8,850 nucleotides of DNA from Candidatus Poribacteria bacterium (GTDB taxonomy: Bacteria; Poribacteria; DTPJ01; WJIO01), in contig WJIO01000232.1 of NCBI GenBank assembly GCA_014730235.1, forward strand, positions 1 to 8,850, read 5' to 3'. Below, one piece after another: positions 1,845 through 7,500 of the stretch. The position numbers and the translations under genes were made by a program. Positions within the stretch are counted from its first letter, which is position 1. Each line of letters opens with the position of its first letter. Under the pieces are notes generated by a model. It was not told the DNA's origin. It saw only the letters and a program-made list of their open reading frames with translations, and made no database searches.

Positions 1845-1873
1845 TTGACTTCAATGTATATATATGATATAAT
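1845..1873 (+). promoter_or_regulatory. Internal promoter for rpmI-rplT
   Basis: TTGACT (1845-1850), 17 bases, TATAAT (1868-1873), with an extended -10 TGA. Hexamers and spacing are the same as in the infC promoter. It starts 26 bases after the infC stop codon. Transcription should begin near 1880, giving a leader of about 208 bases before rpmI, so ribosomal proteins L35 and L20 can be made independently of IF3. Confidence 0.85.
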
Positions 1874-2320: not shown

Positions 2321-2677
2321 ATGCCAAGAGTTAAACGTGGCGTAGCATCAAAAAAGAGAAAAAATAAAGTCTTAAAACGAGCTTCAGGTTTCAGGGGTGG
2401 AAGAAGTAAGCTGATACGCACAGCGAAAGAGGCTGTTGATAAAGCGCTTAAACATTCCTATAGAGATCGAAGAGCGAGAAAAAGAAATTTCAGAAGGTTA
2501 TGGATTAGCAGGATCAACGCAGCGGCAAGGCTTCATGACCTGTCATATAGCAGGTTTATAGATGGGCTGAAGAAGGCCGGGGTACAAATAAACAGAAAAA
2601 TGCTAGCTGATATAGCTGTACGTGATCCAAATGCTTTTGCCGAACTCGCCCGACTTGCCACTCAGCATAAAAGCTAG
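2321..2677 (+). CDS. rplT: 50S ribosomal protein L20
   Basis: A 118-residue basic protein, normal length for L20, starting [19 protein letters not shown], with the conserved [11 protein letters not shown] around residues 33-43 and the block [23 protein letters not shown] around 48-70. L20 binds 23S rRNA early in 50S assembly through its long N-terminal extension. Its globular C-terminal domain (about 60-118) is the part that recognises its own mRNA leader in bacteria where autoregulation is known. Start ATG 2321 follows AGGGAG (2304-2309) by 11 bases. It is the likely regulator of the leader structures at 1953-1998 and perhaps 1197-1321. Confidence 0.97.
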
Positions 2678-2706: not shown

Positions 2707-2850
2707 ATGGAAAAAGGTGTCTATTGGGCGGTATTCGAAACCATAGGTTCAATAGAAGCCTATCTGACATATTGTAAAGCTGATGAAATCTTTTCGGATT
2801 CATCTGCTGACTCAAATGTTGTAGAAGAAAAAGACGTTGATGGAGATTAA
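2707..2850 (+). CDS. YqzL-like small protein
   Basis: A 47-residue ORF too short for most gene callers: MEKGVYWAVFETIGSIEAYL followed by an acidic tail ending EKDVDGD. The segment W-A-V-F-E-x-x-G-S-I-E-A-Y-L at residues 7-20 matches the core of the YqzL family (small Firmicute proteins of unknown function, 'W.vF..TGsieaYL'). GAGGGGGAAG (2689-2698) is the ribosome binding site, and the gene begins 29 bases after the rplT stop. The strong SD, family match and operon position argue for a real gene. Its stop codon lies inside stem I of the pheST T-box, so its translation may affect that riboswitch. No function is claimed. Confidence 0.75.
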   Translation: MEKGVYWAVFETIGSIEAYLTYCKADEIFSDSSADSNVVEEKDVDGD

Positions 2851-3123
2851 GTAAGCCGGGATTAACTTTTAAACAGGGAACAGGTGTCATCGATTGAAAG
2901 CACCTGATGAAAGACCTGGGCTGAATTTCACTCCGAAGTCGTCAGGCTGAAATTTCCCAAAAAGGTTAAATTAAGCCTGTACCGGTGTGTATTCACCGTT
3001 ATCAAAGAAAGAGGGTTCAATTTCTATTTTTATGGCAGATAGAAGTGAACCAAATAGGGTGGTACCGCGAATAATTAAGCTTGTGATTTTCGTCCCTTGG
3101 GATGGATCACAAGCTTTTTTTTT
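2842..3123 (+). ncRNA. T-box riboswitch, tRNA-Phe specific, controlling pheST
   Basis: The hallmark T-box AGGGTGGTACCGCG is at 3056-3069, followed by an intrinsic terminator. Stem I can be drawn: GGAG (2842-2845) with CTCC (2931-2934); AGCC (2853-2856) with GGCT (2919-2922); CAGG (2874-2877) with CCTG (2915-2918); distal hairpin CAGGTG (2881-2886) with CACCTG (2901-2906). Facing AGTA (2850-2853) is the specifier loop GAATTTCA (2923-2930), whose TTC at 2927-2929 is a phenylalanine codon. Next come stem II (CAGGCT 2943-2948 with AGCCTG 2974-2979), a CGGTG/CACCG hairpin (2983-2998), and stem III (GGTTCA 3014-3019 with TGAACC 3046-3051). Uncharged tRNA-Phe should stabilise the antiterminator and allow pheST transcription. 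I see no promoter between rplT and stem I, so it is probably fed by read-through. Confidence 0.95.
3077..3123 (+). terminator. T-box intrinsic terminator
   Basis: AAGCTTGTGAT (3077-3087) pairs perfectly with ATCACAAGCTT (3106-3116), 11 bp, followed by a run of nine Ts (3115-3123). The CCCT within the loop (3094-3097) is the strand that would pair with AGGG of the T-box (3056-3059) in the antiterminator form. Confidence 0.93.
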
Positions 3124-3164
3124 CGGAAAATTTTTTATAATATAGTAATGAGAAATTCTATAAT

Positions 3165-3337
3165 GTAATCGTTAAAAAATGAAAAATGTGTTTAGAAAAT
3201 ACCTTTATAATGATGGTAAATTACAAAATTTGTCATTCCTGCGAAAGCAGGAATCCAGAAAAAACACTATACTGGGAGACTGGATTCCTGCTTTCGTAGG
3301 AATGACAACTAAATTATATCCATTTTTTAACGATTAC
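3165..3337. mobile_element. Nested palindromic element between the T-box and pheS
   Basis: The outer inverted repeat is 19 bp and perfect (3163-3181 with 3321-3339, ATGTAATCGTTAAAAAATG). ATAAT occurs at both ends (3160-3164 and 3338-3342) and may be a 5-bp target duplication; it overlaps the last base pairs of the repeat. Inside is a second inverted repeat (3230-3308). The outer ends differ entirely from the ISL3-like ends of the elements at 968 and 7285, although the core is shared. No transposase is present, and a 72-codon ORF crossing it is an accident of the repeats. It lengthens the gap between the T-box terminator and pheS without damaging either. Confidence 0.7.
3230..3308. repeat. Double-hairpin core repeat (REPIN-like)
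   Basis: Two 29-bp arms (3230-3258 and 3280-3308), inverted, with one mismatch and a 21-base spacer. Each arm is itself a hairpin: ATTCCTGC, a four-base loop, GCAGGAAT on the left. The right arm's GTAGGAAT keeps a G-U pair in RNA. Two inverted hairpin units with a short spacer resemble REPIN organisation. The same module is at 7382-7453. Confidence 0.88.
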
Positions 3338-3341
3338 ATAA

Positions 3342-3370
3342 TTGACTATAGAAAAAGCAATTATTATAAA
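3342..3370 (+). promoter_or_regulatory. pheS promoter downstream of the T-box
   Basis: TTGACT (3342-3347), 17 bases, TATAAA (3365-3370). The -35 and spacing are identical to the other two promoters in the window. The start near 3377 would leave a leader of about 24 bases holding only the AGAGG ribosome binding site. It lies beyond the T-box terminator, so transcripts from it would not be controlled by tRNA-Phe. The -35 box abuts the right end of the palindromic element. Confidence 0.75.
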
Positions 3371-3400: not shown

Positions 3401-4417
3401 ATGGAACAGAAGATTAAGAATATAGAAGCAGAAGCCGTTGAGCAAATGAAAGCCGCCGGTGACCTCAGGGAACTTGATTCAATACGTGTCAAGTACCTGG
3501 GTAAAAAAGGGGCTTTAACTGAAATCCTGAGAGGGATGAAAGATGTATCTCCTGAAGACCGTCCTGTAATTGGTAAACTTGTCAACGAAGCAAAAGAAAC
3601 CATCGGCAAAGCTCTGGATTCCGCTACAGAAAGGTTAAGAAAAAAGGAACAGGAAGCAAAATTAGCGGCAGAACATATTGATATAACCCTTCCGGGACGA
3701 CATCCAGCACTGGGAAAAAAGCATCCCCTTACCCAAACCCGTAATGAAATTATAAGCATATTCCGGGGGATGGGATTTCAGGTGGCAAATGGCCCGGAAA
3801 TAGAGATTGATTATTATAACTTCGACGCCCTTAATATGCCCGAACACCATCCAGCCAGAGATGATCGGGATTCCATGTATATTACCGATGGTGTTTTATT
3901 AAGAACCGAAACATCCGCAGTACAGATAAGAGTCATGGAAAAACAAAAACCTCCAGTAAGGGTAATTGTTCCAGGCAAAGTTTACCGTAGAGACGCAGAC
4001 ATTACCCATACCCCCATGTTTCATCAGGTAGAAGGACTTATGGTCGACAAACACATAAGATTCAGTGACTTAAAAGGAGTATTAGTATCCTTTATACATC
4101 AGATGTTTGGAAAAAACATGAAATACCGTTTCTCACCAGATTTCTTCCCATTTACAGAACCAAGCGCTCAGGTTTGCATAGGATGCAAAGTCTGTAATGC
4201 CTCAGGATGTTCCACATGCTCAGGTACTGGATGGCTGGAAATATTAGGCTCTGGTTCAGTTGACCCGGAGGTATTTAAAGCCGTTAATTACGATCCAGAA
4301 GAGGTAACCGGTTTTGCCTTTGGTATGGGCATAGAACGCATCACAATGCTGAAATACGGAATAGATGACATAAGGCTTTTATTTGAAAACGACCTGAGAT
4401 TCCTCCAGCAGTTTTAA
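3401..4417 (+). CDS. pheS: Phenylalanyl-tRNA synthetase alpha subunit
   Basis: The catalytic subunit of the heterotetrameric class II synthetase that charges tRNA-Phe. At 338 residues it has normal length. The N-terminal coiled-coil arm that contacts tRNA covers about residues 1-90. HPLTQTRNEI (108-117) lies in motif 1; RTETSAVQ (168-175) and VYRRDADITHTPMFHQVEG (194-212) form the motif 2 region; FTEPSAQV (251-258) belongs to the phenylalanine pocket; GMGIERI (308-314) is motif 3. A cysteine cluster at 259, 262, 265, 270 and 273 precedes GTGWLEILG (275-283), as in many Firmicute-type enzymes, and may bind zinc. AGAGG (3389-3393) is seven bases before the ATG. It is controlled by the T-box and probably by the nearer promoter at 3342-3370, and is followed by pheT. 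Confidence 0.98.
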   Translation: MEQKIKNIEAEAVEQMKAAGDLRELDSIRVKYLGKKGALTEILRGMKDVSPEDRPVIGKLVNEAKETIGKALDSATERLRKKEQEAKLAAEHIDITLPGRHPALGKKHPLTQTRNEIISIFRGMGFQVANGPEIEIDYYNFDALNMPEHHPARDDRDSMYITDGVLLRTETSAVQIRVMEKQKPPVRVIVPGKVYRRDADITHTPMFHQVEGLMVDKHIRFSDLKGVLVSFIHQMFGKNMKYRFSPDFFPFTEPSAQVCIGCKVCNASGCSTCSGTGWLEILGSGSVDPEVFKAVNYDPEEVTGFAFGMGIERITMLKYGIDDIRLLFENDLRFLQQF

Positions 4418-4515: not shown

Positions 4516-6930
4516 ATGCTAGTTAGCTTGGAATGGTTAAAGGAATACGTTGACTTTGACATGTCATTGTCAGAGTTATCTGATAAACTTACCATGGTCG
4601 GTCTTGAAGTGGAGAGTATTAAAATACCTCCCCTGGAAAAATTACAAAAGGTAGTTGTTGGTAAAATAATAAAGCACGAATCTCACCCCAACGCCGATAA
4701 ATTATCCCTTTGCACTGTAAGCATTGGTGATGGTAAAGAATTACCAATTGTATGCGGGGCTCCAAATACTCGTGTGGGTCTCATTTCTCCCCTTGCTCTG
4801 GAAGGCGCAGAACTCCCTAATGGTTTAAAAATAAAAGCTGCAAAAATCAGAGGCCAGGTATCTCATGGTATGCTTTGCTCAGAACCTGAATTAGGCCTTG
4901 GAGATGATGCCAGTGGAATAATGGAGCTATCATCCGAATTGGAGCCGGGTACCTCGATCATTGAGGCGTTAGGATTGGATAACCCGGTTCTGGAGTTGGA
5001 ACTTACACCCAACAGATCTGATTGTCTTAGTATTCTGGGTGTGGCAAGAGAAGTTTCAGCCATAACCGGAAATCTACTAAAAAAACCGGATATATCTTTT
5101 TCAGAAAGCGATAAAATAGCTTCAGACTTAACTTCAGTAACCATAGAAGCTCCGGATTTATGCAGAAGATATGCTGCAAGATTAATAACAGGAATTAAAA
5201 TCGGGCCTTCACCTCAATGGATATGCAGACGACTTAACGACATGGGCCTAAGACCTATTAATAACGTTGTGGACGTAACTAACTACGTCCTTATGGAATT
5301 TGGACATCCACTTCACGCCTTTGACTTTGATCTTTTGAAAGAAAAACGGATAATAGTAAGACGGGCAGATTATGGTGAACACATAACGACAATAGATGAT
5401 ATGGAACGCAGATTAAGTAACGAAATGCTTGTGATTGCCGATGCAGAAAAACCCGTCGCAGTAGCCGGAGTAATGGGCGGTGCTTATTCTGAAGTAAGTG
5501 AAAAGACAACAAACATACTTCTGGAAAGTGCTTATTTCAACCCTGTTAGTATAAGCAAAACGGCCAAAATGCTTGGTATGCACACCGAAGCCTCCCACAG
5601 GTTTGAAAGAGGTACAGACATAAAGGGTCTTATAACCGCATTGGACAGAACAGCACAGTTAATACAGGAACTGGCTGGAGGTGAAATCTGCAAGGGAATA
5701 GTTGACGCATATCCTGTACCTTACACTCCGGTTGAGGTAGAACTTCGACCTGAAAGGGTGAATTCCATGCTGGGCACAGACATATCTATCCAGCAAATGG
5801 AAGATCATCTGAAAAGCATTGAATTCCAGGTAACTCAAAGTGAAAATAACCTGCATGTAGTTGTTCCAAGTTTCCGTCCTGATGTGGAAAGAGAAATTGA
5901 CCTTATAGAGGAGATAGCAAGACTCTACGGGTATGATAATATACCTGTCACTATGCCTGTCAGCGAAGTAAGAACCAAGTCAGAAGATGATATCATGATG
6001 GACTTGCGAAACAAGGCCAGGGATGCTATGGTATCATGCGGGTTAAATGAAGTGATAAATTACTCTTTTCACAGCCCTGATGTATATGATATGATACATA
6101 TGGAAGAGGACAGCAAATATCGTAATGTTCTGGTAATAAGAAATCCTATAAGCGAGAATCAATCAGTAGTACGCACAACATTGATTCCCGTTATTCTGGA
6201 AAACATAAGATACAACTTCAACCAACGCACTACAGACGTTGGAATATTTGAAATAGGTAAGGTATTTCATCCAAAAGATGATGGTAGCAAACAACCGGAT
6301 GAACCTGAATTCATATCCGGTGCTATAACAGGAATGATAAATGCTCAGGTATGGAATCAGCCAACAAGGCCAGCAGACTTCTACGACATTAAGGGAGTGG
6401 TAGAAGTTCTTATGGATAAGATGGATGTGGATGAATATCTTGTAAGACCAAGCGTCCATCCTTCTTTTCAGCCGGGTCGCTCCGCTGAAATCGTATCAGG
6501 TGAAATTGTTTTGGGTAACTTTGGTGAAATAAAACGCCAGATACTGGACAATTATGAATTTGAGCAAAATGTCTATATATTTGAAATAGATTTCACCAAA
6601 ATGCTGACATGCACTACCAGAGAAATTATTTTCCAGTCTTTACCGGTATTTCCATCAGTATACAGGGATATGGCTGTAGTTCTGCCTTTTGATATCCCCG
6701 CTTCTGATGTAGTTAAAACTATAAAGGAAGTTGGTGGAAAATTGATCAGGTCATTAAATCTGTTTGACGTTTACAAAGGCAAACAAATCCGTGACGGCAT
6801 GAAAAGTCTGGCTTATGCTATTGAATACTTTTCACCGGAAGAAACACTTACTGATGAAAAAGTTGATTCCATACATAATGAAATTGTCTCAGTTCTGAAA
6901 CAAAAATTTAATGCAGAACTAAGAAAATAA
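4516..6930 (+). CDS. pheT: Phenylalanyl-tRNA synthetase beta subunit
   Basis: An 804-residue, full-length bacterial PheT. Domains in order: N-terminal segment (MLVSLEWLKEYVDF); an OB-fold tRNA-binding domain about 39-152 with HPNADKLSLC at 57-66; the B3/B4 domain about 212-385, site of editing of mis-charged Tyr-tRNA-Phe, with PINNVVDVTNYVLMEFG at 247-263 and EASHRFERG at 358-366; the B5 domain about 403-475 ending DLIEEIARLYGYDNIP; the inactive class II-like core about 490-695; and the C-terminal ferredoxin-like anticodon-binding domain 711-804 (FPSVYRDMAVV at 712-722). It pairs with PheS as alpha2beta2. Start ATG 4516 follows AGGAG (4501-4505) by 10 bases. It is most likely co-transcribed with pheS; the gap holds the heptamer repeat. 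No frameshift or missing domain is seen. Confidence 0.98.
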   Translation: MLVSLEWLKEYVDFDMSLSELSDKLTMVGLEVESIKIPPLEKLQKVVVGKIIKHESHPNADKLSLCTVSIGDGKELPIVCGAPNTRVGLISPLALEGAELPNGLKIKAAKIRGQVSHGMLCSEPELGLGDDASGIMELSSELEPGTSIIEALGLDNPVLELELTPNRSDCLSILGVAREVSAITGNLLKKPDISFSESDKIASDLTSVTIEAPDLCRRYAARLITGIKIGPSPQWICRRLNDMGLRPINNVVDVTNYVLMEFGHPLHAFDFDLLKEKRIIVRRADYGEHITTIDDMERRLSNEMLVIADAEKPVAVAGVMGGAYSEVSEKTTNILLESAYFNPVSISKTAKMLGMHTEASHRFERGTDIKGLITALDRTAQLIQELAGGEICKGIVDAYPVPYTPVEVELRPERVNSMLGTDISIQQMEDHLKSIEFQVTQSENNLHVVVPSFRPDVEREIDLIEEIARLYGYDNIPVTMPVSEVRTKSEDDIMMDLRNKARDAMVSCGLNEVINYSFHSPDVYDMIHMEEDSKYRNVLVIRNPISENQSVVRTTLIPVILENIRYNFNQRTTDVGIFEIGKVFHPKDDGSKQPDEPEFISGAITGMINAQVWNQPTRPADFYDIKGVVEVLMDKMDVDEYLVRPSVHPSFQPGRSAEIVSGEIVLGNFGEIKRQILDNYEFEQNVYIFEIDFTKMLTCTTREIIFQSLPVFPSVYRDMAVVLPFDIPASDVVKTIKEVGGKLIRSLNLFDVYKGKQIRDGMKSLAYAIEYFSPEETLTDEKVDSIHNEIVSVLKQKFNAELRK

Positions 6931-7284: not shown

Positions 7285-7500
7285 GGCTCTTCCAACTTGA
7301 GTGTGGAAATGTAAAAGAGATTGTCTAATTAGTATTCACTGTTTTTCTGCAAATAATTCTAAAAAAGTAAAGATTAGTTTCTGTCATTCCTGCTAAGGCA
7401 GGAATCCAGAAAATCCTCATAAAGACTGAATTCCTGCCTTAGCAGGAATGACAAGCTGAGAGAATTTTCAATTATAACCACAATAAAACTCAAAAGAACC
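7285..7500. mobile_element. 216-bp degenerate ISL3-like MITE, inverted relative to the first copy
   Basis: The left end GGCTCTTCCAACTTGAGTG (7285 on) and the right end AAGAACC (to 7500, reading GGTTCTTTTGAG on the other strand) correspond to the two ends of the element at 968-1087. Next to the core, 29 bases (7453-7481) are the exact reverse complement of 986-1014. The flanks AAGAATAT (7277-7284) and AAAAATAC (7501-7508) agree at six of eight positions and could be a decayed 8-bp target duplication. No ORF is present. It fills nearly all of the 269-base gap between the coiled-coil gene and the URO-D-like gene and ends 13 bases before that gene's ribosome binding site. I find no clear promoter; ATGACA-19-TATAAC (7448-7478) is weak. 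Confidence 0.72.
7382..7453. repeat. Double-hairpin core repeat, second full copy
   Basis: Inverted arms of 28 bp (7382-7409 and 7426-7453) with one mismatch and a 16-base spacer. Each arm is a perfect small hairpin, ATTCCTGC-TAAG-GCAGGAAT on the left and its complement on the right. The stem sequence is identical to the units at 1017 and 3230, while the loop differs (TAAG against GAAA). The loop bases in the two arms remain complementary, so the long hairpin is also kept. Confidence 0.88.

Follow-up and report, generated by a model that had tools for sequence, protein, structure and literature searches.

A yqzL-like open reading frame ends within stem I of the predicted pheS T-box leader of a Candidatus Poribacteria bacterium

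Introduction

T-boxes are usually studied as free-standing leaders. The locus described here lies on a stretch of 8,850 nucleotides of Candidatus Poribacteria contig WJIO01000232.1 (assembly GCA_014730235.1), the whole of which is referred to below as the window, and it has the stop codon of a small open reading frame (ORF) inside stem I of the T-box leader of pheS. A sequence-only reading of this stretch had proposed that a ribosome terminating there would cover the 5' half of stem I, and that the T-box response could in this way be linked to translation of the small protein. This raises the question of whether the overlap is real, whether it is shared by relatives, and whether it points to such a link.

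Results

The pheS T-box leader

The plus strand of the window carries, in this order, infC (from 1358), rpmI (from 2076), rplT (2321..2677, ribosomal protein L20; Pfam PF00453, E 8e-46), a 47-codon ORF (2707..2850), the T-box, pheS (3401..4417; Pfam PF01409, E 2e-98), which is the gene under T-box control, and pheT (4516-6930). The T-box leader (2828..3100, plus strand) matches Rfam family RF00230 over the full length of the model (1-219) with 97.7 bits (cut-off 93, E 4e-21). Its stem I, delimited by the Rfam alignment and the fold, spans 2833..2943: the lower helix begins at 2833, the 5' side of the K-turn occupies 2836-2841, GGAG (2842-2845) is paired with CUCC (2931-2934), and the AGUA of the specifier loop is at 2850-2853. 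The same alignment and fold place the specifier UUC (Phe) at 2927-2929, which matches the downstream gene pheS. The antiterminator follows with AGGGUGGUACCGCG at 3056-3069, including the T-box bulge UGGU (3060-3063), and then a terminator hairpin with U tract, recognised by sequence and fold (3077..3123), at which the rpmI-rplT-yqzL message probably also ends while pheST is not expressed. The pheS T-box is thus predicted to be an ordinary, intact member of RF00230, of the transcription-attenuating type and of the tRNA-Phe class.

The stretch from the T-box terminator to the start of pheS contains the palindromic repeat GTCATTCCTGCGAAAGCAGGAATCC with 29-nt arms (3230-3308). The motif is present again at 7383-7407 of the window, and at more than 400 places in the genome of the window when up to two mismatches are allowed (reversed control, 0). 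A second inverted pair with 25-nt arms, 92% complementary (3157-3181 and 3321-3345), encloses this repeat, and because of this arrangement the whole, outer arms included, may represent a small insertion resembling a mobile element within the 5' untranslated region of pheS.

The yqzL-like ORF

The ORF between rplT and pheS encodes 47 amino acids and ends with a UAA stop at 2848-2850. It scores 17.3 bits against the Pfam family YqzL (PF14006), below the curated cut-off of 27, which is reached with 29.1 bits by the homologue of G001. Homologues are present in three other families of the phylum (genomes G001, G016 and G057) and in Bacillota. By alignment, the core W-x2-F-x2-(T/I)GS-(I/L)-x-A(Y/F)L-x-Y is common to the homologues of the phylum, and the motif W-x2-F-x2-TG-x2-x-AYL-x-Y is common to the ORF and the YqzL of Bacillota; since the core motif is present while the Pfam cut-off is missed, the gene is called yqzL-like. 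Over the 16 codons of the core the window differs from G001 at 0, 3 and 5 and from G057 at 1, 4 and 11 of the first, second and third codon positions, respectively. A chance ORF is ruled out by the homologues in three other families together with the third-position changes; the ORF is very probably a real coding gene, presumably translated in vivo. Its tail, which is the part overlapping the T-box, is unconserved among the homologues in the alignment.

The alternative of a leader-peptide attenuator was also considered. No run of Phe codons was found, the ORF having two in 47 (positions 10 and 29), the first of which encodes the conserved motif residue F10. A function of yqzL as leader peptide is ruled out by its conservation at the protein level, the few Phe codons, and the presence of the gene in G001 without a T-box.

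Overlap of the ORF with stem I

Sequence, Rfam alignment and fold agree that the last six codons of the ORF (2833..2850, plus strand; GAC GTT GAT GGA GAT TAA) are the 5' strand of stem I. The sequence-only reading had remarked that GGA GAT TAA (2842-2850) contains the GGAG strand and leads straight into AGTA. This is borne out, the final base of the stop codon, A2850, being also the first base of AGUA, and the stop does lie inside stem I; the extent of the overlap had however been underestimated, as it starts at the lower helix (2833) and comprises over 18 nt the lower helix, the whole 5' side of the K-turn, GGAG and the first A of AGUA.

Transcription of the locus

The two top-scoring promoter sites of the window are found upstream of infC and rpmI. 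The site upstream of rpmI (1845..1873, plus strand; TTGACT-17-TATAAT) has 11 of 12 consensus matches, a TG before the -10 box and a score of 14.5, far above the background of 290-nt windows (mean 7.4, range 5.3-11.1); its twin upstream of infC (1162-1190) is likewise TTGACT-17-TATAAT. Judged by their consensus, these two sites are likely the source of the transcript that runs through the T-box. From the end of rplT to AGUA the consensus scan detected no site above background level, in keeping with the earlier remark that the T-box has no visible promoter; this absence holds at consensus level, since such scans miss other sigma factors. The best site of this interval (score 9.2, 2655-2685) is 5' of the yqzL start, so that its transcript would include yqzL, and the best one 3' of the yqzL start (2764-2792) has a score of 6.5, which does not reach the background mean. 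The best sites of G016 and G057 are likewise 5' of yqzL.

The only other T-box found in the genome of the window (L001 1501-1757, minus strand) precedes a gene which, from its translation, we take to be ilvD-like. It has a near-consensus promoter a few tens of bases upstream (TTGACA-17-TATACT, score 13.7), which indicates that promoters of this genome are recognisable. As no promoter above background lies in between, the pheS T-box would be transcribed as a continuation of the ribosomal protein and yqzL message, and probably, to judge from these consensus matches, only as its 3' part.

Relatives within the phylum

pheS was found in all 58 genomes of the phylum. yqzL and T-box were found together in three genomes of the phylum, those of the window, G016 and G057, which belong to three families, and in all three they overlap; the T-boxes of G016 and G057 match Rfam with 111.8 and 112.4 bits. 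In G016 the ORF continues through AGUA with its stop about a dozen bases beyond, and in G057 the UAG stop has its AG in common with AGUA. The first A of AGUA is consequently a third codon base in the window, a second one in G057 and a first one in G016, and these three frames in three families rule out a single inherited in-frame overlap. In the PheS tree the three genomes do not form one clade; the branch of G057 is very long and the deep forks are unsettled.

In 33 relatives lacking yqzL the T-box follows rplT, with 26-276 nt (median 59) from stop to AGUA and no overlap, which means that a pheS T-box can do without the overlap. In two other lineages of the phylum the pheS T-box is apparently absent: in L114 (f4 g4) rplT runs almost directly into pheS, and in L117 (f8) pheS is located elsewhere and no T-box motif was seen.

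The nearest relative of the window, G001 (PheS 77% identical), retains infC-rpmI-rplT-yqzL (L128 1400-1850). There is no Rfam T-box match after its yqzL, where sequence and fold reveal a hairpin with U tract like the T-box terminator (omitted by a simple terminator scan, for which its loop is too long), and its pheS is on another contig (L113), also without T-box match. The persistence of yqzL and hairpin without the T-box suggests that yqzL is independent of the T-box, and that the ribosomal protein message also uses the T-box terminator as its end.

Bacillota

Of 159 genomes from the phylum to which the Pelotomaculum genome G058 belongs, 106 were found to have YqzL, and many Bacillota loci carry yqzL immediately before a pheS T-box. 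A T-box could be measured in 77 loci, where 0-168 nt (median 38) separate the stop from AGUA, the values being partly hand-corrected and the final table hand-checked. Taking stem I to start about 15 nt before AGUA, yqzL overlaps the T-box in six of these loci, while in most the two are tens of bases apart. The UAA is directly before AGUA in L146, the UGA of the K-turn serves as stop in L213 and L226, and the stop falls within the K-turn in L142, L143 and L145; all six T-boxes match Rfam (108-117 bits). Amongst L142, L143, L145 and L146, whose region is 79-89% identical, the overlap is kept while stop codon and position shift, the stop moving by 10 nt between close relatives. The proportion of overlaps differs between the two phyla (3/3 vs 6/77; Fisher p 0.001, kinship ignored). 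None of 26 other Bacillota T-boxes scored in eight genomes overlaps an upstream ORF of at least 90 codons, a different ORF criterion which makes this a rough control.

Some Bacillota loci, including L064, L152, L180, L183, L197 and L221, keep the yqzL-pheS order with the T-box lost or reduced, and in some of these its decay has left a terminator-like hairpin between yqzL and pheS.

The overlap of the yqzL-like ORF with the T-box is therefore real and found again in distant relatives, though not universally. Its conservation, which the sequence-only reading had proposed to check, holds for all phylum genomes with both elements and for a minority of the Bacillota, yet with a different frame and with many separated loci; relatives in which ORF and intact T-box are well apart, named beforehand as evidence against a link, do exist in part, with gaps of tens of bases. 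The view that the switch is always read on a transcript being translated up to this point agrees with the overlap and with the lack of a good promoter in between; as a necessity it is not supported, relatives being separated or without yqzL.

Discussion

We regard the locus as an ordinary intra-operon tRNA-Phe T-box in which the 5' strand of stem I is the end of yqzL, a reading to which we give a probability of about 0.5 and in which co-transcription, as well as the sign and size of any coupling, are inferred. Transcripts would start at the rpmI and infC promoters, continue through rplT and yqzL, and either end at the T-box terminator or enter pheST upon binding of uncharged tRNA-Phe. A ribosome at a stop codon covers roughly the last codons and about a dozen bases downstream. 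When terminating at 2848-2850 it would thus sit on the lower helix, on the K-turn and on that side of the specifier loop which holds AGUA, in keeping, for the base of stem I, with the earlier suggestion that it would cover the 5' half of the stem. In folding with bases covered to 2850 or 2862 the base helix is lost; with bases covered to 2862 the distal hairpin alone remains of stem I. The terminator is more than 220 nt beyond the stop, so that any influence would be confined to stem I. If a leading ribosome followed the RNA polymerase closely, it would depart ahead of the synthesis of the 3' half of stem I (about 2930-2943), and later ribosomes would briefly unzip the stem I base before the polymerase reaches the terminator. 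The net effect would be that yqzL translation modestly inhibits antitermination, and that this is relieved by ribosomes stalling upstream, e.g. at Phe codons. Such a translational coupling of yqzL and T-box is plausible by analogy: terminator hairpins of E. coli are repressed by a ribosome sitting at a stop codon, provided that they are no further away than about 27-30 nt (PMC4824070), and expression under the metE B12 riboswitch rose more than tenfold once an ORF within its aptamer had lost its start codon (PMC11260477). In B. subtilis transcription is reported to outrun translation, according to a work cited in PMC7858274; if this were so here, ribosomes would come too late and have no effect on the T-box.

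The overlap may also be neutral, a reading that we rate as somewhat less likely, yqzL having run into the adjacent T-box without regulatory effect. A variable tail could end anywhere, stem I offers stops, and ribosomes would clear before the decision or arrive after it. The three frames in three families, the stop shift of 10 nt in close Bacillota relatives, the unconserved tail and the tight gaps without overlap common in Bacillota are all consistent with this, but the excess of overlaps in the phylum over Bacillota, the absence of overlap in the 26 other T-boxes and the known disturbance of nearby hairpins by ribosomes at stop codons (PMC4824070) argue against it.

If instead yqzL translation were a selected second input, with ribosome traffic or stalling gating the folding of stem I, pheST expression would report both the charging of tRNA-Phe and translation activity. 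Overlap or close spacing of yqzL and pheS T-box recurs in two phyla, Phe codons are present at positions 10 and 29, and the upstream ORF (uORF) of the B12 riboswitch offers a precedent (PMC11260477). This reading is nevertheless unlikely, because the overlap is not obligatory, most of the phylum having yqzL-less and assumedly functional T-boxes at the same place, and because its frame, differing in every family, disfavours one maintained frame-specific device; moreover G001 keeps yqzL though the T-box is lost, and of the few Phe codons one belongs to the conserved protein motif. Rather than a dedicated sensor, the likelier case is a modest inhibition that is not essential, or the lack of any effect.

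A promoter within yqzL that serves the T-box, giving regulated transcripts without translated yqzL, is very improbable, since the site at 2764-2792, which would place the start just before stem I, scores below the background mean and the best sites here, in G016 and in G057 are 5' of yqzL, even if other sigma factors escape consensus scans.

In the open literature searched, in which the main T-box survey was not covered, no prior description of the overlap or of the yqzL-T-box-pheS order was found, nor any paper pairing 'T-box' with 'YqzL'. This recurrent gene order is now documented, and overlaps of varied extent, separated relatives and T-box-less relatives represent natural constructs for the study of ribosome interference with tRNA sensing.

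Comparison with known systems

The pheS leader resembles other RF00230 leaders in its stem I with K-turn and specifier loop, its antiterminator with UGGU bulge, its terminator and the downstream pheST; it differs from the usual leader in lacking a visible promoter and in having the 5' strand of stem I within the coding sequence of the gene before it. A T-box between genes of one operon is known from gltX-(T-box)-cysE-cysS of Bacillus, for which the part of PMC4342826 describing this operon reports no overlap with an upstream ORF. The local gene order is the same as in Bacillota yqzL-T-box-pheS, where YqzL has about 30 amino acids and mostly stops tens of bases short of AGUA, in contrast to the overlapping 47 of the window, and where the stop is in stem I in 6/77 loci; in L055, by our reading of the locus, yqzL comes after rplT, a TrkA-like ORF and an rRNA-methyltransferase-like ORF. 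The closest parallel for an ORF overlapping a riboswitch aptamer is the uORF of the M. tuberculosis metE B12 riboswitch (PMC11260477), a translational B12 switch with a measured effect, whereas the pheS leader is a predicted transcriptional tRNA switch known from its sequence.
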